Shown here one piece after another: positions 4,255-33,779 of a stretch of DNA of 64,000 nt. The notes under the pieces were generated by a model. It saw only the letters and a list, made by a program, of their open reading frames with translations. It made no database searches and had not been told where the DNA came from. Positions within the stretch are counted from its first letter, which is position 1, and every line of letters starts with the position of its first letter. Where the stretch lies: positions 1 through 64,000 of IMG/VR virus record IMGVR_UViG_3300036852_000239; one strand, written 5' to 3'. The stretch is from a virus. A program made the translations under genes and the position numbers.

Positions 4255-4412
4255 CAGTAGCCTCCGTGTTCTTCAGGGTCACAGCCGCGCATCTTGATCG
4301 GCTTCGGTGTTTTGGCGTAGAGGTAGCAGTTCTCGTAGCTCCAGCAGCGGCGAGGCATGCGGCACGGGCCGGGTCGGCAGGCACCCTCGCGCTTGTCGCG
4401 AAGCGGAATCAT
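4254..4412 (-). CDS. Short cysteine-containing protein
   Basis: 52 aa. Strong GGAGGAG precedes ATG 4412 by a few bases, and both ends overlap neighbours (ATGA, TGATG). Cysteines occur as GACRPGPCRMPRRCW, then ENC and GCDPEEH, so a small metal site is plausible. Function unknown. Confidence 0.6.
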   Translation of the reverse strand: MIPLRDKREGACRPGPCRMPRRCWSYENCYLYAKTPKPIKMRGCDPEEHGGY

Positions 4413-4780
4413 CTGTGCTCCTCCATGCTCTTGGCGATCGTTCCCTCAACCCTGCCGGTGACATCAGGTCCGCCGTCCCACTGATCAAGTACGGCGTTGA
4501 AGGAGTGGGAGATGTAGCGGACCTTCAGCCGCGAGAAAAGGCGTGGGAGCCAGCCCTGCCATCTACCGTCCGGGACATCGAAGGTGACGCGGACCTTGCC
4601 CTGCGTCTCGGGGAACGGCTGGAACATGCCGCCAGAGTTGTTGAAGGTGAACGTCGCGCTGGCCGACTTCAGCCCGGCCAGGTACTCGCCCCAGATTTCG
4701 CTGTCGGGTATGCCGTGGTCGATGGTCACGTCGTTCACGAAGGACGTCATGTCCACGCCGTTGATGTTGAACTTGTCCAT
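4409..4780 (-). CDS. Beta-rich hypothetical protein
   Basis: 123 aa, start ATG with GAAGGAGG upstream. The sequence alternates aromatic and polar residues (SASATFTFNNSGGMFQPF) and looks like an all-beta fold. It overlaps the genes on both sides. No family was recognised; a structural or virion role would be unusual in this early cluster. Confidence 0.6.
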   Translation of the reverse strand: MDKFNINGVDMTSFVNDVTIDHGIPDSEIWGEYLAGLKSASATFTFNNSGGMFQPFPETQGKVRVTFDVPDGRWQGWLPRLFSRLKVRYISHSFNAVLDQWDGGPDVTGRVEGTIAKSMEEHR

Positions 4781-11877: not shown

Positions 11878-11920
11878 TAGTTGATCTCCCTTGGTGGATG
11901 GTGGGTCAGACCGCAGGGGG

Positions 11921-12394
11921 TTACTTCACTCGCCCTCTTGGCACCCAGTTCTCGCTGTAGCCACGCTTGTCGTGTTCGGGTGCGACGATCGGATCGCCGT
12001 ACAGGGTCGTGCCGATGCGGGTTCCTGGTGTGAGGAACAGGTTTCCGGTGCTTTGACTGTCGGGGCAGGACCAGCAGTTGTCTGCCTTGTGCCGGCCGTG
12101 CTCGCATCGGTCCAACGCGGCCAGCACCGGCTCGTACGTCTGGGCTGGCGGTGGGTTGTCCCACGTGACTTCTGTGTCGGTCTCCTCGTGCGGCCCGTCG
12201 TGGCTTGCGGGCAGGTCGCAGGAGACGATGCGCGTGTTCGGCATCGCGTTGGATGACATGGGCATCTGCTGGCGGCAGGCGCTGGCTGGGCGTGGGATGC
12301 CTCCGTGGCAGGGTTCCCCTTCGTGTTCCCACTGGCCGCCTCTGCGGATCAGGGGCTGGTTGCACCACATGCAGTGGTCGCGCTTGATATCCAT
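11921..12394 (-). CDS. Zinc-binding protein, copy 1 of a duplicated gene
   Basis: 157 aa. CMWCNQPL with EPCHGG, and CEHGRHKADNCWSC, are two likely zinc sites. The protein is identical to that of 12650-13129 apart from the first few residues. ATG 12394 lies just after the stop of the gene at 12397. Function is unknown. Confidence 0.65.
   Translation of the reverse strand: MDIKRDHCMWCNQPLIRRGGQWEHEGEPCHGGIPRPASACRQQMPMSSNAMPNTRIVSCDLPASHDGPHEETDTEVTWDNPPPAQTYEPVLAALDRCEHGRHKADNCWSCPDSQSTGNLFLTPGTRIGTTLYGDPIVAPEHDKRGYSENWVPRGRVK
11940..12384. repeat. Near-exact direct repeat, copy 1
   Basis: About 445 bp match the segment at 12669-13113 base for base by eye. Similarity extends a further 60 bp or so on the left with a few changes. 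The period is 729 bp. It covers almost the whole of one small gene and leaves the gene between the copies single. Confidence 0.85.
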
Positions 12395-12396
12395 GG

Positions 12397-12603
12397 TCAG
12401 ATGCCGTCCTCGGGGCCTTCGTCGTCCAACTCGTTCGCGCCGTCCACGATCTGGTCGAGTGCTTCCTTCGCGATCCGCCACAGCCGTGCCAGGTCTTCGT
12501 CTTCGATCGAGTCGGCGCTCATGTAGTGCTGGATGGCGTAGCCCAAGCCTTCGCTTTCGACGATGTCAGCTACTTGCTCGATCGAGTATTTTTCGTCGCT
12601 CAT
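12397..12603 (-). CDS. Small acidic hypothetical protein
   Basis: 68 aa, helical and acidic (ESEGLGYAIQHYMSADSIED). Similar short acidic proteins are frequent in actinophage early regions. It sits between the two copies of the duplicated gene. Function unknown. Confidence 0.6.
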   Translation of the reverse strand: MSDEKYSIEQVADIVESEGLGYAIQHYMSADSIEDEDLARLWRIAKEALDQIVDGANELDDEGPEDGI

Positions 12604-12649
12604 CTCAGTTGATCTCCTTCTTGGTGGATGGTGGGTCAGACAGCGGGAG

Positions 12650-13129
12650 TTACTTCACTCGCCCGCGTGGCACCCAGTTCTCGCTGTAGCCACGCTTGTC
12701 GTGTTCGGGTGCGACGATCGGATCGCCGTACAGGGTCGTGCCGATGCGGGTTCCTGGTGTGAGGAACAGGTTTCCGGTGCTTTGACTGTCGGGGCAGGAC
12801 CAGCAGTTGTCTGCCTTGTGCCGGCCGTGCTCGCATCGGTCCAACGCGGCCAGCACCGGCTCGTACGTCTGGGCTGGCGGTGGGTTGTCCCACGTGACTT
12901 CTGTGTCGGTCTCCTCGTGCGGCCCGTCGTGGCTTGCGGGCAGGTCGCAGGAGACGATGCGCGTGTTCGGCATCGCGTTGGATGACATGGGCATCTGCTG
13001 GCGGCAGGCGCTGGCTGGGCGTGGGATGCCTCCGTGGCAGGGTTCCCCTTCGTGTTCCCACTGGCCGCCTCTGCGGATCAGGGGCTGGTTGCACCACATG
13101 CAGTGGTCGCGCTGAACTTGGGTGGTCAT
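12650..13129 (-). CDS. Zinc-binding protein, copy 2 of a duplicated gene
   Basis: 159 aa. ATG 13129 has a good GAGGAG 8 nt upstream, stronger than the start context of copy 1. The first residues are MTTQVQRDHC against MDIKRDHC in copy 1; the rest is the same. It may be the parental copy. Confidence 0.65.
   Translation of the reverse strand: MTTQVQRDHCMWCNQPLIRRGGQWEHEGEPCHGGIPRPASACRQQMPMSSNAMPNTRIVSCDLPASHDGPHEETDTEVTWDNPPPAQTYEPVLAALDRCEHGRHKADNCWSCPDSQSTGNLFLTPGTRIGTTLYGDPIVAPEHDKRGYSENWVPRGRVK
12669..13113. repeat. Near-exact direct repeat, copy 2
   Basis: Partner of 11940-12384. The high identity, including silent positions, points to a recent duplication or to ongoing gene conversion. 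Confidence 0.85.
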
Positions 13130-13981: not shown

Positions 13982-14093
13982 GCGGTTCTCCTTCCGGCGG
14001 ACAATGATCTTGCGGGCAGATGCACGGTGGCTCTACAGGGACACGGCCGGACCTGATCAAGAAGTCGCGGCGAAGCCAGGCATCGCAAACCAT
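13911..14093 (-). CDS. Possible small cysteine-containing protein
   Basis: 60 aa from ATG 14093, which overlaps the TGA of the primase gene. MVCDAWLRRDFL is followed by CICPQDHCPP. It overlaps the methyltransferase start by about 70 nt, and a competing frame with a TTG start ends exactly at that start (ATGA). I cannot decide between the two. Confidence 0.3.
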   Translation of the reverse strand: MVCDAWLRRDFLIRSGRVPVEPPCICPQDHCPPEGEPHEAADRLLRQQGDDRRADRGALA

Positions 14094-15679
14094 CACGGCG
14101 CGGCCTCCCTCTTCTCCGGTGGCGACCAGGCGACCCACGGCAGATGACCGACGGGTCCGTACTGCAGGTTCTTGGGCCAGTCCCGGTCGTCACGCGGGCC
14201 GCGCCAGGCGATGACATCGATCTCGCGGCACCGTCCACGGTCATCCGGCTGCGCGAGAGCGTTCTGGGCAAGGCCGTAGCCGAACTCGGGCCAGCGCAGC
14301 AGCAGCGATGACCCGATAGGCCGGACCGAGCGGGACTTACCCGCCTCGCCGTGACCCGCGTGGGCCTCGGTCAGCAGCGCGGCGCCGGAGATGCTGCGCG
14401 CGTGGTCAAGCACGGCGGCAACCCGGCGGGCGTTCTCTTCCTTGTTGATGTCTCCGGAGTGCAGTTTGTAGAACGGGCCGATCACCAGGAGATCCGGCTT
14501 GTATCCGGTGACCTGCTCGATCAGCCAGTCCGCGTCGTCGGTGTCCAAGTCGATCCCGTTGGGGCGATGTACGACAAACATCATGTTGTTGGCCGGAGCC
14601 CGGTTGTAGTTCTTCATCACCGTGGCGATCGGCCGCATCTTGCGCCTGCCCTGGGTTTCGGAGTTCTCGCAGTCGATGAACAGCACTCGCTTCGGTTCGA
14701 AGTTGGAGTGCTTGCCCGGGTCGAACGGGTGCAGGCCTGCCGCAGCGCACAGCGCGAGCTGCCGCACGAGCATCGACTTGCCCAAGCCCTCGAACCCCGT
14801 CAGCAGTAGCCGATCATTGCGCTCCAGCAGTTCGGGAAGCACCCATTCGGGCGGCGCGTCGGAAGCATCTAGGAACGCCCACAGCTCAACTGCAGCGAGC
14901 GGCTTGGCCAGCCCCTGCGCCGTCCAGGTGGTGATCAGGTCGTCGAGCGTCAGGCCTGCATTGAAGTGGTCCGTTACGTCCTTCACCTTCTCGTCGCCCG
15001 CAGCCTCCTTGACGGTGACGTCTGCGGCGACGCCCTGTAGCGCTTCACGAACCAGGCGAGCGTGGGCCTGGCCGGGCTTGTCCTTGTCCGCGACAATGAC
15101 GACCACCGCATCCCGCAGGCACTCGGTGTACTCCGGCTTCCACTTGCCGGCGCCGCCCGGGTTGCAGGTACCGACCAGGCCCTGGTTTTCCAGGCTGTGG
15201 ACGTCCTTCTCGCCCTCGACGAGATAGATTTCCCGGTTTTCCTCAACCGCCTTGAGAACCTTCTGCAGCCGGTAGAGCACGCGCCTCGTATCGCCTAGCT
15301 TCCAGGTGTAGCCGTCGCGGCTGGACGGGTCGGGCTTGCGCTGCAGGAACTTCTTGTCCGCTGTGCGGCACACCTGGAACAGCAGTTCGCCCTGCTCGTC
15401 GCGATAGTCGTAGATCGCGGCGAATCCGCGGTCGGTCTGTTGTCGCTCGCGCGGTGCGGACAGCACAGCCCAGTCCAGGCCGAGCGCCTTGCATACCGCT
15501 TCCGCGTCGCATCCGGCATGGCAGTGGAACACCACCGGGTGGTTGCGGCCCTCGCCCACGGACAGGCTGTTCTGCCGGTCCTCGTGGACGGGGCAGCGGG
15601 CCATCCACCCGGAACCCGAGCGGCGTAGCGGGCCGAGTTTGCTCAACTCGGGCAACACCAGATCGCGAAGGACGTCCAT
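14093..15679 (-). CDS. Primase-helicase
   Basis: 528 aa. Zinc finger C29, H32, C53, C57 as in CHC2 primases; TOPRIM with VEGEKD (154-159) and DKDKPG (198-203); then a RecA-like ATPase with Walker A GFEGLGKS (295-302) and a Walker B-like LLVIGPFY. This is the layout of phage primase/helicase proteins that prime and unwind at the fork. ATG 15679 overlaps the upstream TGA and has GGGAGG. It forms one unit with the initiator-like gene upstream. Confidence 0.9.
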   Translation of the reverse strand: MDVLRDLVLPELSKLGPLRRSGSGWMARCPVHEDRQNSLSVGEGRNHPVVFHCHAGCDAEAVCKALGLDWAVLSAPRERQQTDRGFAAIYDYRDEQGELLFQVCRTADKKFLQRKPDPSSRDGYTWKLGDTRRVLYRLQKVLKAVEENREIYLVEGEKDVHSLENQGLVGTCNPGGAGKWKPEYTECLRDAVVVIVADKDKPGQAHARLVREALQGVAADVTVKEAAGDEKVKDVTDHFNAGLTLDDLITTWTAQGLAKPLAAVELWAFLDASDAPPEWVLPELLERNDRLLLTGFEGLGKSMLVRQLALCAAAGLHPFDPGKHSNFEPKRVLFIDCENSETQGRRKMRPIATVMKNYNRAPANNMMFVVHRPNGIDLDTDDADWLIEQVTGYKPDLLVIGPFYKLHSGDINKEENARRVAAVLDHARSISGAALLTEAHAGHGEAGKSRSVRPIGSSLLLRWPEFGYGLAQNALAQPDDRGRCREIDVIAWRGPRDDRDWPKNLQYGPVGHLPWVAWSPPEKREAAP

Positions 15680-16452
15680 CAAGCCTCCCAGGCGAACTTG
15701 GCTCGCTCGGGCGGCATAAGCGGCTCGGGCTCCTCCCACGGCCTGGCGTGCAGCCAGGTCACGGCCTGCTTGGTGTACTGCGGATTCTCACCCACCCGGT
15801 CTTTGGCGTAGGCCTGCAACGCGGTCAGGATCTCGGCAGGGTCGACGCCTCGCTTGAGTGCGGCTTCGTAGGCGATGCGCGCCTTGTGCTTCGAGTTGTT
15901 TTTGCGTGGCGGGTAAGTCCTCCAGAACTCGTCAAACCTCTCGTCCGTGTCGGACGAGAGAGAGTTCGAAGAACTCTCTTTATGGTCGGGTCGGGTCGGG
16001 GCGCTGTTACTGCGCCCGTTACTAATGCCGTTACTGCGTCCGTTATTTGCGCCATGTAACGCGTTACGTTCCACCTCGGCCTGACGCTCGCGCCACCTCG
16101 CCTGCCTTTCGGCATTGGCGGCGCGCTCGGCGACCACCTTCGACTTGCTCGGCTGGTACTCCCAATAGTCGTGGATCACCCAGCCGTTCGGGCCCGATGG
16201 AGGACAGTCTTCGCTGTCGCATTGGAACCCTGCTTCGTGCCAGAGGCCCCGGCGAACGAGTTCGGTGCCGAAGCGTGCCGGCGCTCGCACCCGTGCTGTC
16301 ACGAGCTCGAGGTCTTCCTCGGGCACGACCCCGTCCGTGAGGTTGCGTGCGCACCAGAAGATCGCTGAGACGTGAAGACGGAATGCCGTGTCCGACAGGC
16401 CATCCACCTTCCTGTTGACCGGGAAATGGTCATCGAAGCGAACCCAGGGCAT
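15679..16452 (-). CDS. Replication initiator / replisome organiser
   Basis: 257 aa. It begins MPWVRFDDHFPVNRKVDGLS, the start of a winged-helix replication protein family of actinophages, and ends in a helical DnaD/O-like domain with FDEFWRTYPPRKNN. Between them is a low-complexity linker (asparagine, glycine and serine repeats) whose DNA carries iteron-like repeats. Position before primase-helicase supports a role in opening the origin and loading the helicase. Confidence 0.75.
   Translation of the reverse strand: MPWVRFDDHFPVNRKVDGLSDTAFRLHVSAIFWCARNLTDGVVPEEDLELVTARVRAPARFGTELVRRGLWHEAGFQCDSEDCPPSGPNGWVIHDYWEYQPSKSKVVAERAANAERQARWRERQAEVERNALHGANNGRSNGISNGRSNSAPTRPDHKESSSNSLSSDTDERFDEFWRTYPPRKNNSKHKARIAYEAALKRGVDPAEILTALQAYAKDRVGENPQYTKQAVTWLHARPWEEPEPLMPPERAKFAWEA
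15959..16067. repeat. Iteron and inverted-repeat cluster inside the initiator gene (origin candidate)
   Basis: AGAGAGTTC and GAACTCTCT (15959-15979) form a 9-bp inverted repeat with a 3-nt centre. GTTACTGCG occurs at 16006 and 16030 (period 24 bp), with further CCGTTA copies. GTAACGCGTTAC (16056-16067) is a perfect 12-bp palindrome. The stretch is less GC-rich than its surroundings. Iterons within the initiator gene are the layout of the lambda origin. Confidence 0.5.
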
Positions 16453-16994
16453 CAGGCGCCTCCCCGGTGGGGGCGAGGCGCGCGGATGAAGGGGAGCTGG
16501 CCCGGCCACCAAAGGTTGCCGCCAGCGTCGTTGAAGATCTTCTTGCCTTGCATGTGGCAGAACCGGCACTGCCAAGTGCCGGCGTAGTCCAGGAACGAGT
16601 ACCGGTCGCAGTTGGCGCAGACCAGCATGACGATGTCCTGGGCGTAGGTGGTGCCCTCCCACACGCACATGCCGCCGCGCGACGGGCGCCCGATGACGAC
16701 CAGCTGCTGTTCGAAGTCCCATTTGTGGGCGTCGACCTGGAGCAGTGCCTTCTGGAACTCGAGCGCCTTGTCGATGTTGTCGTCGCCTGGCCCTTTGACC
16801 TCAAGCCAGACGTGCTGCATAGGGAGGTGGAAATCGGGAAGGTACTTGATCCCGTCGTGGATGTTCACCGCATTGGGCTCGTACTCCCAACTGATCTGGT
16901 AGTGGTCCAGTGTGGCGCACCAGTCGGCCTCCAGGCGGGATCGCATGTGCTCTCCGCCGTACCAGGTGGGCACTGCCTCGATCGCCACGGTCAC
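16452..16994 (-). CDS. PD-(D/E)XK-type nuclease with zinc ribbon
   Basis: 180 aa. RSRLEADWCATLDHY, then KYLPDFHLP and WLEVKGPG give the E ... PDF ... ExKG core of a PD-(D/E)XK nuclease. A zinc ribbon follows (CANCDRY ... CRFCHM). Start GTG 16994, or GTG 16988 which has the better spacing to GGGAAGG. First gene of the replication operon, transcribed away from the box cluster at 17.1 kb. Likely a recombination or replication nuclease. Confidence 0.75.
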   Translation of the reverse strand: MTVAIEAVPTWYGGEHMRSRLEADWCATLDHYQISWEYEPNAVNIHDGIKYLPDFHLPMQHVWLEVKGPGDDNIDKALEFQKALLQVDAHKWDFEQQLVVIGRPSRGGMCVWEGTTYAQDIVMLVCANCDRYSFLDYAGTWQCRFCHMQGKKIFNDAGGNLWWPGQLPFIRAPRPHRGGA

Positions 16995-17040
16995 CTTCCC
17001 GATAAGAGGTATTTCTCTGTCGTTCGTACGTGCTAGGTGG

Positions 17041-17151
17041 ATATCCAGATCATACGCGAGTGGATATCCACAAGACCGTGCACAAGGTCAGCTATTCTTG
17101 TCCACAGGGCTGACCTCGTATATCCACAGGTTGTCCACATGGATGTCCACA
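17041..17151. promoter_or_regulatory. Cluster of DnaA-box-like 9-mers
   Basis: Plus-strand 9-mers: ATATCCAGA 17041, ATATCCACA 17064, TTGTCCACA 17098, ATATCCACA 17120, TTGTCCACA 17131, ATGTCCACA 17143. TTGTCCACA is the actinobacterial DnaA-box consensus; the others differ by one to three bases. The cluster fills the gap between the replication operon (minus) and a small plus-strand gene, so it may be an origin or a divergent operator. Confidence 0.6.
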
Positions 17152-17166
17152 GGTACTCTGTGAGCT

Positions 17167-17349
17167 GTGGCCAAGCAGGACGCGACTACGCACACCCCGC
17201 ATCGGCCTATTCGCGTACCCCAAGCACGCTGGGACGCATTCGGCGCGCTCGTTGGAATCCGCGACCGGGCACGTGTCGTGAACGAATTCATCGCGTGGTA
17301 CATCCGGGAGCCCGGCGCCAAATTGCCGAAGCGTCCCGACACCGCCTAG
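17167..17349 (+). CDS. Small ribbon-helix-helix-like protein on the plus strand
   Basis: 60 aa from GTG 17167. RPIRVPQARWDAFGALV followed by DRARVVNEFIAWYIREPG resembles a short beta strand plus two helices (CopG/Arc type) seen in actinobacterial plasmids and phages. It is the only plus-strand gene in the early half and lies next to the 9-mer cluster, which it may bind. Confidence 0.65.
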   Translation: MAKQDATTHTPHRPIRVPQARWDAFGALVGIRDRARVVNEFIAWYIREPGAKLPKRPDTA

Positions 17350-17390: not shown

Positions 17391-17606
17391 TCAAGACTGA
17401 CCACCCGCCGCCTCGCACCGCTCACACCGATCACCACGGATGACCGCCAGCAAGTCCTCGTCCGTGGCCACGCGCGTGCGCAGCGACCAGTTCCCGGCCG
17501 CCTGCATCCGGGCGATGAACGGCTCCCACACTCGGCGATCGGCGTGGACACCGAGGACATGCGCGCAGTGGCGGTTGTAGACGGCGTACAGGGCGTGACC
17601 GCTCAT
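17391..17606 (-). CDS. Small hypothetical protein with C-terminal CxxC
   Basis: 71 aa, ATG 17606 overlapping the upstream TGA. YNRHCAHVLGVH in the first half, DRCERCEAAGG at the end. Its gene converges on the plus-strand gene at 17167. Function unknown. Confidence 0.55.
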   Translation of the reverse strand: MSGHALYAVYNRHCAHVLGVHADRRVWEPFIARMQAAGNWSLRTRVATDEDLLAVIRGDRCERCEAAGGQS

Positions 17607-17857
17607 GCGCACTCACGCTCGATCCGGTCGTGGAAACGCTCGCCCTCGCTGGCGGATTCCTGCCACACCACTGGCCGCAGCTGCGGATCGGTCACCTCAC
17701 CGCACCGCGAGCAGACCCCGACGATCGTGGTAGCGATCCCGTAGTACTCGCCAGGATCAATACGATCCGTTGAGCGGATGGAATCCCGGCCGATCCACCT
17801 GGAGCACAGCGGGCAGCACCAGCGCCAGACTTCAAGCTCGGGAAGGATCACGGTCAC
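17603..17857 (-). CDS. Zinc-ribbon protein
   Basis: 84 aa from GTG 17857 (GTGA overlap). WRWCCPLCSRW and VCSRCGEVTD are the two knuckles of a zinc ribbon. Role unknown. Confidence 0.6.
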   Translation of the reverse strand: MTVILPELEVWRWCCPLCSRWIGRDSIRSTDRIDPGEYYGIATTIVGVCSRCGEVTDPQLRPVVWQESASEGERFHDRIERECA

Positions 17858-18427: not shown

Positions 18428-19231
18428 TCAGGAGGACACCTCAATCAGGGAGCGGTGGTGCGCGAGGATCAGCCGGCCGATGTGCTCCGCCGCCGGCGGG
18501 ATGACCGCGTTTCCGAGTGCCCGGATACGGTCCAGTTGCTCGGGAATCCCATGAGCCAGTCGAGCCACTCGGGGTTCACAAGCCAGCCACTCACCCGCTG
18601 CCCGCCTGCGCTGATGTGCTGCCAGGCCAGAAAGTCCTCCAGTTGATAGCGGTGTTTCCCACTCTCCGCCCTTGCCCAGCAGATCCCGTGCTCGCCCATC
18701 GACGCCCGTGGGGTAGGCCACGAGGTAGAGCCGTTCACGCGGATGCGGTGCACCGAACGCGGACGCTCGTAGCAGGCTCCATTCCGCATCGAACCCGAGC
18801 GAGGCCAGGTCGGCGAGGACGGCCCCGAAGGCATCTCCATCGGCAAGGAGTCCGGGTACGTTTTCGACCAGGACATATCGGGGTTCAACCGTGCGAATGA
18901 CGTCGCGCATCCACGGCCAGCCCCAGCGGGGATCTCCCATTCCGAGTTGCTTTCCACCGAAGCTGAACGGCTGGCAGGGGAATCCGCCAGCGACCAGGTC
19001 AACGGGAGCTCCTCCTCTTGCCAGCCACCAGGCAGCAGCAGTTCGGACGTCGTCATGCTTCGGCACCTCCGGCCAGTGGCACGCGAGAACCTCGCGGCAG
19101 TACGGGTTGATTTCGACCTGACCCACGCACCGCCAACCGGCCCAGTCCAGGCCGAGGTCGAGCCCGCCGATGCCGCTGAACAGAGACAAAAACGTCGGGT
19201 TGTCCACAGGGTTGCCCACAGGAAGGCTCAC
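18428..19231 (-). CDS. DNA (cytosine-5) methyltransferase
   Basis: 267 aa from GTG 19231 (GTGA overlap; GTG 19240 is possible). Motif I FSGIGGLDLG, motif IV FPCQPFS with the catalytic Cys, motif VI VENVPG, motif VIII RERLY and motif X RALGNAV are all present in the usual order. The target domain is short. It can modify phage DNA against host restriction. A second same-strand frame inside it (18469-19056) also looks protein-coding. Confidence 0.92.
   Translation of the reverse strand: MSLPVGNPVDNPTFLSLFSGIGGLDLGLDWAGWRCVGQVEINPYCREVLACHWPEVPKHDDVRTAAAWWLARGGAPVDLVAGGFPCQPFSFGGKQLGMGDPRWGWPWMRDVIRTVEPRYVLVENVPGLLADGDAFGAVLADLASLGFDAEWSLLRASAFGAPHPRERLYLVAYPTGVDGRARDLLGKGGEWETPLSTGGLSGLAAHQRRRAAGEWLACEPRVARLAHGIPEQLDRIRALGNAVIPPAAEHIGRLILAHHRSLIEVSS
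18469..19056 (-). CDS. Overlapping same-strand ORF inside the C5 methyltransferase gene
   Basis: 195 codons in the frame +1 to the methyltransferase. It reads SWSKTYPDSLP, TWPRSGSMRNGACYERPR, SWPTPRASMGEHG and, at the end, LVNPEWLDWLMGFPSNWT. These short motifs match a phage protein family often found beside C5 methyltransferases. Two recognisable proteins in one stretch suggest overprinting. The frame could also be a by-product of the conserved methyltransferase sequence. Confidence 0.4.
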   Translation of the reverse strand: MTTSELLLPGGWQEEELPLTWSLADSPASRSASVESNSEWEIPAGAGRGCATSFARLNPDMSWSKTYPDSLPMEMPSGPSSPTWPRSGSMRNGACYERPRSVHRIRVNGSTSWPTPRASMGEHGICWARAESGKHRYQLEDFLAWQHISAGGQRVSGWLVNPEWLDWLMGFPSNWTVSGHSETRSSRRRRSTSAG

Positions 19232-19455
19232 GCCGCCCACCTCTCCCGCGCCAGCTCGGCACCGGAAGGGAACCGCTCACCGGACAGATCGGGGCCGGGC
19301 TCCTGACCACCGCCTTCACACCAGTCCGGGCCGTTGGCCACACCGGCAGCGGTCATGATCCGTTCACGGTGGCGGGACAACACACCCTTTCCGTTGATCG
19401 AAACATCCTCACCGCCACATATATGGCAGGTGACCTTGTAGTGGTAGGCGGTCAT
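19228..19455 (-). CDS. Zinc-finger-like small protein
   Basis: 75 aa, ATG 19455 in an ATGA overlap. CHICGGEDV, then LSRHRERI gives a C2H-type finger; DWCEGGGQ follows. Function unknown. Confidence 0.6.
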   Translation of the reverse strand: MTAYHYKVTCHICGGEDVSINGKGVLSRHRERIMTAAGVANGPDWCEGGGQEPGPDLSGERFPSGAELARERWAA

Positions 19456-28924: not shown

Positions 28925-29746
28925 TTATGTCTCCGACCTCCACCAGGAAGGCAGTTTCTTGCCACCACGACCGGCGTTATTGATCTCGACAGCAGCAGCA
29001 GCGACACAGTGGTTACGCGGGTTGCCGGTCTGCTTGCGCAGGTTCTCCGCCTTGCCCAGCAGCGCGTTGACACCACCGTGCGCCTTGGCCAGCTTGGCCA
29101 CGAGCTGCTTGTCGTCCAGGTCGCCGTTGTAGCGGTGGCACAACAAGCCGATCCCGTCGATGACCGCCGCCTCCAGGCCCGGATCCCCGAACGCATCGCG
29201 GATGATCAGCAAAGTGCGGGCCAGGGTCTGCGGGCCGCCGGTGCGGTAGACCCGCATCAACGTCCCCACGGCACCGATCGCCCCGTCGCCCTTGTCCTGC
29301 GAGACACGCAGCATGCACTCCCGCACAACCCGGTCGACCTCAGTCTCATCCGGCCGTCCGGCCTGCACCCCGACACGGAACTTGGCGAATGCATGCACCG
29401 TCAAGGTGTCGTTGAGCTTGAGGAAGATCTCAGCCTCTTCCTCTTCGGTCAGGCCCTCATACATCCAGCACTGGACGCTTTGGGACTCCCAGTCATCACC
29501 GAGCCAGCTCTTCAAAGCCTCCAGCCGGTGCTGCCCGTCGATCACCCAGTAGTGGCTGGCGCGGAAGTTCACGGTGGGCGAGCCGAGCTGCTCCGGGTCG
29601 AACTCTTCGGCGAGCCTGAACACCCGCGATTCGTTGAGGTCCCGCTGCGCCAGCGGGTTGACCTTCACCAGGTTCAGCGGGATCCATTCCAGGCGAGCGG
29701 TACGCTCAACCTTTTTCCCTCCGGCGGGACCTTGGGTAGACTTCAC
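28925..29746 (-). CDS. ParB-like nuclease-domain protein
   Basis: 273 aa. WIPLNLVKVNPLAQR and the VIDGQHRLEAL motif (G-Q-H-R) mark a ParB/Srx fold; a helical domain follows. Actinophage copies of this family have no separate ParA. It may bind CTP and DNA or act as a nicking protein. It forms a pair with the ParB-like gene upstream. Confidence 0.75.
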   Translation of the reverse strand: MKSTQGPAGGKKVERTARLEWIPLNLVKVNPLAQRDLNESRVFRLAEEFDPEQLGSPTVNFRASHYWVIDGQHRLEALKSWLGDDWESQSVQCWMYEGLTEEEEAEIFLKLNDTLTVHAFAKFRVGVQAGRPDETEVDRVVRECMLRVSQDKGDGAIGAVGTLMRVYRTGGPQTLARTLLIIRDAFGDPGLEAAVIDGIGLLCHRYNGDLDDKQLVAKLAKAHGGVNALLGKAENLRKQTGNPRNHCVAAAAVEINNAGRGGKKLPSWWRSET

Positions 29747-30849
29747 GAGGCTTTCTCCTTCAATTGCCTGACAAGCCGGTTGAGCGTCCGGATTGATGTG
29801 GTGATGGAAGAGGCCCAGCCGTCGATTTCGGCGGGGTCCAGGTCGTTGATGTTGACGAGTTGGACCCCCATGGCCAGCCCGTCCAGTGCGATCGCGGTCT
29901 CCCGCACAACCCGGTTCGAGTCGATGCTTTTGCGGGTCCGCACGCCCAGCGCCTCGTCGGCCGGAATCGTGATCCCTTGCTTCTTCGCCGCCACGCGAAG
30001 GGTCGCCGCGCTTGAATAGCCGAGAGTCTTGGCGATTTGCTCGGAAGTGTGGCCGCTGTTCGCGAGCTCGCGCATCCTGTCGAAACGTTCGACGCCCGGC
30101 CTCTTTGGTTCATCCGGCTGCGACTCAACTGGAGGCTCGGCTAGGACTGCCCGCTTGACTTCCTGCGCTTCGCGTTTGGCGCGCAGCTGGCGACGTAGAT
30201 CACGTGCCGGACGCGCGATGGCCCCAGTGCGGTCCATCTCGGCGAGCGCTTTGCGAGCTAGTTCGCGCTCCTCTTCGCTGGCATCGGTGTCGGTGGCGGC
30301 TCGATGCGCAAAGTGCAGTTCGCTGTAGGTGCGGCCAGACATTCCGAGGGCCTCGCCGACAACATGGCGCGTCTTGTTGTGGTCCGATCCGGGCTCTCCG
30401 ACATCACTTGTGGTACGCGTACCCTGAGTGTGCGAGGGTCGGCCCGGAGCCGTTCCTCCATGCTCGCGCTGGCGCGTTTTCGCTGACTCTGCCTCAATCT
30501 CGTACAGCGCCGCACCAAGCGATCCCAACTCCGATGGCCGCATCTCCTGGCGGCAGAGGTTCTCGTCCCGCTCTGCGCGCAGCAGCTTGGCTGCGTCGTC
30601 GAGAGAGTCCACGAACCGCACTGGCACCTGCGACCAGCCCAGCAGCCGACACGCCTCCAGCCGACGCTGACCAGCCACCAGCCGACCGTCGCGAGTGAGG
30701 GTGATCGGGTTGAGCAGGTCCACGTCCTGGATCGACAGAGCTAACTCGCGCAGGTCGCCGAGATCCTTGCGGTGTCGCCCTGCCACTTTGATCGCCTCAA
30801 TGCTCACGAACGCGTCGATGGCGGTCGGCGAGATCAGCGTATGTGTCAT
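29743..30849 (-). CDS. ParB-like DNA-binding protein
   Basis: 368 aa. Residues 10-90 hold the ParB N-terminal domain (LNPITLTRDGRLVAGQRRLE). After a long linker, HTSEQIAKTLGYSSAATLRV is a HTH unit. The C-terminus may dimerise. No ParA is seen nearby, so it may regulate transcription or act on DNA topology rather than partition; partition of a plasmid-like lysogen is a weaker option given int and attP. Confidence 0.8.
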   Translation of the reverse strand: MTHTLISPTAIDAFVSIEAIKVAGRHRKDLGDLRELALSIQDVDLLNPITLTRDGRLVAGQRRLEACRLLGWSQVPVRFVDSLDDAAKLLRAERDENLCRQEMRPSELGSLGAALYEIEAESAKTRQREHGGTAPGRPSHTQGTRTTSDVGEPGSDHNKTRHVVGEALGMSGRTYSELHFAHRAATDTDASEEERELARKALAEMDRTGAIARPARDLRRQLRAKREAQEVKRAVLAEPPVESQPDEPKRPGVERFDRMRELANSGHTSEQIAKTLGYSSAATLRVAAKKQGITIPADEALGVRTRKSIDSNRVVRETAIALDGLAMGVQLVNINDLDPAEIDGWASSITTSIRTLNRLVRQLKEKAS

Positions 30850-32546: not shown

Positions 32547-32576
32547 AGCTGGCGCGTCCATCCATGGGAGCCCGTG

Positions 32577-33779
32577 ATGTGGGTTGAAAAACACCGAAAG
32601 GTGTTCCGCATCCGCGACGAGTTCATCGATGCGGATGGCAAGCGGGTCAAGTTCGACCTGGCCACCGGCTTTGCCACGAGGACGGCCGCCAACGACGCCA
32701 TGGCGATCCTGAAAGCCGAACAGCTCCAGGGCACCGGACTCGTGCCGCGCGGCGGGGAGCGGACGCTTGCCCAGTACTGCGGCCAGTGGTGGGAGGACAG
32801 CGAGGGCATCTACACCAGAGTCCGCTCCCGCGAGACCATCAAGAGCAGGATGGACCGCTACATCGTGCGGCTACTCGGCAGCCACACCCTCGCCGAGCTC
32901 GAGGAAAGCCCACGGCTGGTGCAGCGATGGGTGAACGCCCTGCTGCTGGGCCGCACGAAGCCGCTTCGGGGCAACCCCAGACCGCTTGCCCCGAAGACCG
33001 TCCGCGACGCCCACGGCCTCCTCCACCAGATCCTGGCGGCAGCGGTCAAGGAGAAGCTGATCCGGTCCAACCCGTGCGCGGACACGAAGCTGCCCGAGCG
33101 GGTCGACACCGAGATGCGGTTCCTCACCCCGGCTGAGGCCGACCGGCTCGTGAACGCGTTCCCGCCGCACTGGCGCCCACTGATCCTGTTCCTGCTCGCT
33201 ACGGGGTGCCGGTGGTCAGAGGCGATCGGGTTGCGGCTGAAGAACCTGGACGTCCTCGCCTGCCGCGCGCGGATCCTGGTCAAGACGGTCATGGATGACT
33301 CCGGGAATTGGCATGACGAGCCTCCCAAGTCCCGCCGAGGGCGGCGGACGGTGTCGTTCCCCAAGCGGGTCGCCCAGTCACTGATCGCACTGGCGATGAT
33401 CGACGACGACCGGGAGCGGCGAATCTTCCTCGGCCCCCGAGGGGGCATGATCGCGGCGAAGGATTTCTATGCGATCTGGCGCAAGGCGCTCGCCGAAGCC
33501 GGACTAGAGGGCCTGCGTATCCACGACCTGCGCCATACACATGTCGCCTGGTTGATAGCGGCGAAAGTGCCGCTGTCGGCCATCAGCCGGCGGATCGGGC
33601 ACAAGAGCATCGCGGTGACCGACGACATTTACGGCCACCTCCTGGAGGAGATCGAAGACTATCTCACCAGCTCGCTCGACGCGGTCATGACCGTGATCGA
33701 GATCCGGGGGGAGTGGGGGGAAATCCGGGGGGAATCGGTGTCCGATGAGGACCGGCGAGAACCGGTGAAGACCGGCTAG
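32577..33779 (+). CDS. int: Tyrosine integrase
   Basis: 400 aa from ATG 32577 (GTG 32574 is possible). N-terminal arm-binding and core-binding domains are followed by the catalytic domain: R212 in ATGCRWSEAIGLR, H316-x2-R319 in HDLRHTH, H342 in IGHKS and the nucleophile Y352 in DIYGH. A Gly/Glu-rich tail follows. It recombines attP with a tRNA-Ser attB. attP lies 45 bp after the stop. Confidence 0.95.
   Translation: MWVEKHRKVFRIRDEFIDADGKRVKFDLATGFATRTAANDAMAILKAEQLQGTGLVPRGGERTLAQYCGQWWEDSEGIYTRVRSRETIKSRMDRYIVRLLGSHTLAELEESPRLVQRWVNALLLGRTKPLRGNPRPLAPKTVRDAHGLLHQILAAAVKEKLIRSNPCADTKLPERVDTEMRFLTPAEADRLVNAFPPHWRPLILFLLATGCRWSEAIGLRLKNLDVLACRARILVKTVMDDSGNWHDEPPKSRRGRRTVSFPKRVAQSLIALAMIDDDRERRIFLGPRGGMIAAKDFYAIWRKALAEAGLEGLRIHDLRHTHVAWLIAAKVPLSAISRRIGHKSIAVTDDIYGHLLEEIEDYLTSSLDAVMTVIEIRGEWGEIRGESVSDEDRREPVKTG

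Follow-up and report, generated by a model that had tools for sequence, protein, structure and literature searches.

The cluster of DnaA-box-like repeats at positions 17041 to 17151 of the window (the whole 64,000-nucleotide stretch analyzed here, taken from a 67,171-bp viral contig) is best explained as the operator of the divergent gene for a 60-amino-acid (aa) Arc-like ribbon-helix-helix (RHH) protein rather than as a DnaA origin. Based on sequence comparison, we consider it highly probable (roughly 0.86) that the array is the bidirectional operator-promoter region of this protein. The initial annotation had allowed for either a host-DnaA-dependent phage origin or an operator array; the second possibility is now strongly supported, and the first is unsupported.

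The source record also encodes an integrase (32574 to 33779 in the window), two ParB-like proteins, and head and tail proteins, which indicates that it is likely a temperate phage. The two genes for ParB-like partition/nuclease proteins (28925 to 30849) are adjacent to each other and near the integrase gene, in the region that contains the minimum of the cumulative GC skew (31.0 kb). In another part of the window, a leftward open reading frame (ORF) is found in near-identical tandem copies (11881 to 12481 and 12640 to 13129; ..RDHCMWCNQPLIRRGGQWEHEGEPCHGG..), which represent a recent duplication.

Organization of the box cluster

Two exact copies of TTGTCCACA are found in the cluster, along with near copies at 17064 and 17120 (ATATCCACA) and at 17143 (ATGTCCACA). 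The copy at 17041 (ATATCCAGA) differs at three positions and counts as a box only through the palindrome that contains it. The earlier observation of two exact and four near copies is confirmed, and the clustering is real. The outstanding property is the clustering of the boxes, not their number in the window. NT[AG]TCCACA has five matches within ~90 bp, and the largest cluster across 400 Markov-1 resamplings contained two; over the whole window, there are 14 matches to TTGTCCACA with one mismatch and 9.6 are expected, so that the enrichment is not significant. Only one more exact copy of TTGTCCACA is present in the whole record, at 19200. At that location, TTGTCCACAGGGTTGCCCACAGG (19200 to 19222) provides two half-sites 12 bp apart, as in the pair at 17131/17143, at the 5′ end of a C5-methyltransferase ORF (18428 to 19240, minus strand), and this is possibly a second, weaker candidate operator.

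The two leftmost copies lie inside perfect palindromes (sites 1 and 2; Table 1), and the last copy is held by a near-palindrome, TGGATGTCCA (17140 to 17149). The remaining boxes are half-sites of the same motif as the two perfect palindromes. Because of the palindromes, the two left copies read alike on both strands, and the statement that all copies are on the plus strand is only partly meaningful. Three of the six window sites are half-sites and not palindromes, and there are fewer full palindromes than in the related loci L091 and L096. The centers of the six sites are spaced at 23, 34, 22, 11, and 12 bp. The original description of the flanking genes is correct, with the nuclease, initiator, and primase-helicase genes reading leftward and the 60-aa ORF reading rightward. 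The next plausible ORF downstream of the RHH gene (17391 to 17612) is on the minus strand; with plausible genes on both flanks reading leftward, the RHH gene forms a one-gene island.

Table 1. Observed and predicted features of the operator region and flanking genes (window coordinates)
Feature	Coordinates	Strand	Remarks
Primase/helicase with AAA_25 domain	14093..15739	-	
Replication initiation protein	15679..16452	-	phrog_2447, 4e-33; listed ORF extends to 16722, likely start near 16452
Nuclease, Holliday-junction-resolvase/endonuclease-like	16452..16994	-	First gene of divergent operon
Operator site 1	17038..17047	.	Perfect palindrome TGGATATCCA; leftward promoter start region
Predicted leftward -10, TATGAT (ATCATA on plus strand)	17049..17054	-	Between sites 1 and 2; nuclease/replication operon
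Operator site 2	17060..17071	.	Perfect palindrome GTGGATATCCAC; center 23 bp from that of site 1; leftward promoter spacer
Operator half-site TTGTCCACA, exact box 1	17098..17106	+	Center 34 bp past site 2
Operator half-site ATATCCACA	17120..17128	+	
Operator half-site TTGTCCACA, exact box 2	17131..17139	+	Includes predicted -35, TTGTCC (17131-17136)
Operator site beside -10	17140..17151	+	Near-palindrome TGGATGTCCACA; center ~22 bp before start codon, the conserved last-site position
Predicted RHH-gene -10, TACTCT	17154..17159	+	7 nt before start codon; leaderless
60-aa Arc-like RHH protein	17167..17349	+	GTG start; predicted DNA-reading strand HRPIRV

The 60-aa protein and its relatives

Homologues were collected from viral contigs, bacterial genome contigs, and sampled actinobacterial genomes. 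The ~50 that were found belong to actinobacterial prophages, mobile elements, and viral contigs, and at least one match is present in 44 of 298 sampled Streptomyces-family genomes and in 14 of 297 genomes in the class. Some of the RHH loci in host genomes are within ~20 to 30 kb of an integrase or helicase gene.

PHROG_6506, annotated as “Arc-like repressor,” matches 32 of 46 aligned relatives (best, 2e-10), and Pfam RHH_1 weakly matches 6 of them. The window protein itself falls below thresholds, with no Pfam or PHROG match; its assignment comes from these relatives, and by the same reasoning it would form an RHH dimer. The AlphaFold2 model of the monomer (pLDDT of 84.6) has predicted helices at residues 19 to 29 and 31 to 45 after an extended N terminus. 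Neither Foldseek against solved structures nor VIA-align returned a match for this single-chain 60-aa model, and a sequence search of the PDB gave only chance-level matches, among them one CopG-family protein and ParG. There was also no match for the RHH protein or its relatives in tblastn searches of phages and plasmids, or for the region in a blastn search of phage records.

Two traits are specific to this family, namely, the PGAKLPKRP tail at the C terminus and conserved W residues. In three members, the tail (17311 to 17340 in the window) weakly matches an integrase repeat unit, PF14882 (best, 0.024). One candidate relative, L023, was set aside because its similarity (56% over 25 residues) reflects a chance match to the string AKLPKRPD.

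Probable operator arrays accompany the RHH family

Nearly all of the homologues have two to six copies of one palindrome immediately upstream of the gene; no clear array was seen at six weak or truncated matches. The cores vary across the family and include GTGGATATCCAC, GTGTACGTACAC, GTGTAGCTACAC, GTGTGGCCACAC, TTGTGGCCACAA, GTGTATATGCAC, GTGTCATGACAC, GTGGTCAACCAC, and GTGGCTTGCCAC, among others. Overall, the family provides ~80 natural repressor-operator pairs, several of them near-identical, and the palindromes in these pairs have about ten different cores. In the 50 loci that were scored, spacings of 22 to 24 bp (38 cases) and 34 to 35 bp (38 cases) predominate, and the last site is centered 21 to 25 bp before the start codon in 39. 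These equivalent arrays, with their conserved geometry and matching palindromes, strongly support the suggestion of an operator array for the RHH-like gene.

The genes on the other side of the array differ in the loci of the GGATATCC class. The divergent genes are the initiator/helicase operon in the window, an AAA_25 ATPase in L018, an initiator of phrog_2149 in L026, an initiator of phrog_270 in L091, and a Prim-Pol in L096. Since these five loci adjoin unrelated replication genes, the array goes with the RHH gene and not with one replication system. Replication genes that lack an RHH neighbor mostly lack such an array: relatives of the window replication operon in L004/L024 (the closest, with a nuclease 71% identical), L006, L007, and L008 have no upstream box cluster. 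In L005, TTATCCACA, CTATCCACA, TTTTCCACA, and TTGTCCCTG are found at 4369 to 4422, upstream of a related nuclease/replication operon that has no RHH gene. Control of replication is likely in the GGATATCC class but is not general, because the first divergent gene in other classes often encodes another short protein, such as DUF6011 in L052.

Predicted promoters and the proposed circuit

In 39 of 52 loci (background, 0.04 for each bin), a TAnnnT motif ends 6 or 7 nt ahead of the start codon; at this distance, it is the mark of a leaderless actinobacterial transcript. In the window, the likely -35 hexamer of the RHH promoter is TTGTCC, which is part of the 17131 box and lies 17 bp upstream of the -10. 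The same hexamer is retained in L018, where the site reads TTGTCCCCC, without the DnaA 3′ end. In the opposite direction, a leftward TAnnnT is located between the top two sites in 32 of the 37 family members that have a 22- to 25-bp pair, and the position of window site 1 relative to the leftward -10 matches that of site S1 in the relatives. The presence of -10 boxes in both directions indicates that two divergent promoters are covered by the array. Given this location of the leftward -10, between sites 1 and 2, repression by the array probably extends to the replication operon as well as the RHH gene.

In the proposed circuit, RHH dimers would recognize the half-site GTGGAT/ATCCAC via the N-terminal strand HRPIRV and would occupy all six sites, which lie roughly along a single face of the DNA. 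Occupation of the right-hand sites, which would cover the -35 and -10 of the leaderless RHH promoter, may result in negative autoregulation. The two left-hand palindromes bracket the leftward -10, and the nuclease/initiator/primase-helicase operon would thus also be repressed. The homologues have the same architecture with core palindromes that differ with the strand residues, so that each mobile element may have a private repressor-operator pair.

Strand residues and operator cores

The predicted strand residues, which correspond to H12 to R16 (HRPIR) of the window protein, predict the inner bases of the half-site. Proteins with HRSVR pair with GTGTACGTACAC (GTGTAC half-sites in nine of nine proteins), those with xRQ[IM]R pair with GTGTAGCTACAC (TAG in all nine RQ[IM]R proteins), and those with HRPIR pair with GTGGATATCCAC (GGAT in three of three), while SRFR/RKFR proteins pair with TGG. 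Members that were added later (L153, SRFR; L160, RQTVR; L161, RKFR) also obey this rule. Among pairs of proteins that are <50% identical outside the strand, the inner trinucleotide is common to 48% of those with similar strands (80% or more) versus 5% of those with different strands. In a permutation test that took the remainder of the protein into account, strand and operator showed a significant, if modest, partial correlation (0.22; P of about 0.0025). In this covariation set, five half-site registers were hand-corrected and two loci were left out, and many of the sequences are related to one another.

Searches of viral contigs that used only DNA confirmed this rule. All 16 GTGTACGTACAC pairs adjoin an RHH gene with HRS[VI]R, and 27 of 36 GTGTAGCTACAC pairs adjoin an RHH gene (22 with RQ[IMVF]R and 3 with T[RV]P[IV]R), although several of these DNA-only matches are near-identical and some are loci already found. 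Direct pairs of GGATATCC adjoin an RHH gene in 4 of 10 cases, and the proteins include HRPIR (in L096 and in L092, the same contig as L018) and HRPLR (in L091). The recovery of RHH genes with the strand expected from the palindrome strengthens the operator reading. Seven of the nine GTGTAGCTACAC pairs that are away from an RHH gene are in contigs with such a gene elsewhere and are located before other genes, which suggests a small regulon.

In large phage contigs of ~98 to 99 kb (L119/L128, L133/L136, and L142/L143), GTGTAGCTACAC pairs precede several other genes, and one PRQVR-type RHH is encoded elsewhere in the contig; these are apparent multi-promoter regulons. Pairs of GTGGATATCC (L090, 9334 to 9371; L093, 4480 to 4516) adjoin a different small RHH-like family (..TPGYVYRPTPPDLLKQVDETMGAGWRARVITSLLRRFV..).

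As a correlation across the sequences compared, the agreement between strand and core argues that the strand residues may determine the operator sequence. A broader proposal, which we put forward tentatively and hold to be possible but not probable, is that these small RHH proteins are specificity-switching repressors of actinobacterial prophages and mobile elements with a readable recognition code, in which the five-residue strand would set the inner three bases of the half-site. Co-resident elements would therefore keep mutually blind (heteroimmune) circuits, and these circuits could be attached to unrelated replication cassettes.

Alternative explanations

TTGTCCACA is the preferred DnaA box of high-GC actinobacteria, and its two exact copies beside a replication operon could be read as host DnaA boxes, with the gap serving as a DnaA-dependent phage replication origin. 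The three near boxes in L005 (TTATCCACA, CTATCCACA, and TTTTCCACA, at 4369 to 4410), which lie just upstream of the nuclease gene at a locus with no RHH gene, would also fit an origin. However, this explanation is very unlikely. The GC skew is ~-0.05 on both sides of 17 kb, with no switch there and a cumulative minimum at 31.0 kb, although skew is only weakly informative for a phage. The intergenic region, which is 50% AT, lacks a strongly AT-rich unwinding element; its best 50-bp window is 56% AT. The cluster is not conserved with the replication genes, as it is absent from L004, despite the 71% nuclease, and from L006 to L008. Furthermore, the 17131 box carries the likely -35 and is altered in L018, and the array geometry is shared by RHH relatives whose cores do not resemble DnaA boxes. 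Four considerations (skew, AT content, nonconservation with the replication genes, and promoter elements within the array) led us to discard a DnaA origin as the main reading, and the claim of a host-DnaA-dependent origin is not upheld.

The two functions might also be combined, with some of the drifted half-sites also being real DnaA boxes, so that the RHH protein and host DnaA would compete for an origin or promoter. The ATCCACA half-site of the RHH class of the window overlaps the DnaA consensus; of the RHH members examined, only the window has exact TTGTCCACA boxes; and the near-box cluster of L005 could again be cited in favor. Yet there is no exact TTGTCCACA in the arrays of the HRP[IL]R relatives L018, L026, L091, and L096 and thus no sign of selection for resemblance to DnaA boxes, and we consider such dual use very improbable. 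A better candidate for a DnaA origin than the window is in L011 (9271 to 9501; also L012, 4337 to 4567), where both strands carry TTATCCACA-type DnaA boxes, five to six in all, spread over ~230 bp before a terminase-like gene.

Iterated short sites beside a gene for a small RHH protein, in a window that also has ParB-like genes, could represent a partition centromere bound by a ParG/Omega-type protein, but this is extremely unlikely: the ParB-like genes are 11 kb away, the RHH gene has no ParA-type gene beside it (its neighbors are nuclease/replication genes and short ORFs reading toward it), the sites follow two promoters at a fixed distance to the -10 boxes, and many members occur in host genomes where integrases are also encoded, in some cases on the same stretch. 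It is equally hard to credit that the RHH protein is a type II antitoxin that autoregulates its own toxin-antitoxin operon, since no same-strand gene follows it in the window and it is paired with a divergent gene, which varies from locus to locus, even though toxin-antitoxin modules commonly include RHH proteins that autoregulate through palindromic operators (PMC4803016).

Significance and comparison with known systems

With the operator-promoter reading, a false origin call gives way to a testable circuit in which an Arc-like repressor is tied to a phage replication operon. The natural pairs that link operator cores to five strand residues make RHH recognition testable by residue swaps, and dozens of relatives with differing docking sequences could be used to learn how such repressors read DNA. 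For many Streptomyces prophages with regulators annotated only as hypothetical proteins, it would become possible to predict operators, the promoters that they target, and possible regulons.

A phage RHH autorepressor with an operator array is of a known kind. Searches of a set of open-licence articles gave no description of the family-wide set of operators, their shared leaderless bidirectional layout, or the rule that links strand to operator.

The resemblance to actinobacterial oriC arrays consists of the TTGTCCACA 9-mers and the 11- to 12-bp spacing in part of the array. Unlike those arrays, the window has two palindromic copies and promoter elements that overlap the sites, and it has no unwinding element and no conservation with replication genes.

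The immunity region of phage P22 contains the small RHH repressors Arc and Mnt at divergent phage promoters. The window likewise would encode a small phage RHH repressor that acts at divergent promoters. However, no antirepressor was found here, and the GGATATCC-class operator faces replication genes.

CopG of pLS1-type plasmids is an RHH repressor of a replication operon. The proposed circuit is similar in that a small RHH protein would repress both its own gene and replication genes. In contrast to CopG, the repressor and replication genes are divergent, there are two to six spaced sites, and the replication genes depend on the locus.

The operators of Arc and CopG are palindromic and arrayed, as are those of the present family. 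The kinship with PHROG_6506 and the RHH_1 (Arc-MetJ-CopG) superfamily is further seen in the matches of the relatives and in the extended N terminus followed by two helices that is predicted for the window protein. What distinguishes the present family is that its operators vary widely and that each array serves both a leaderless autogenous promoter and a divergent one.
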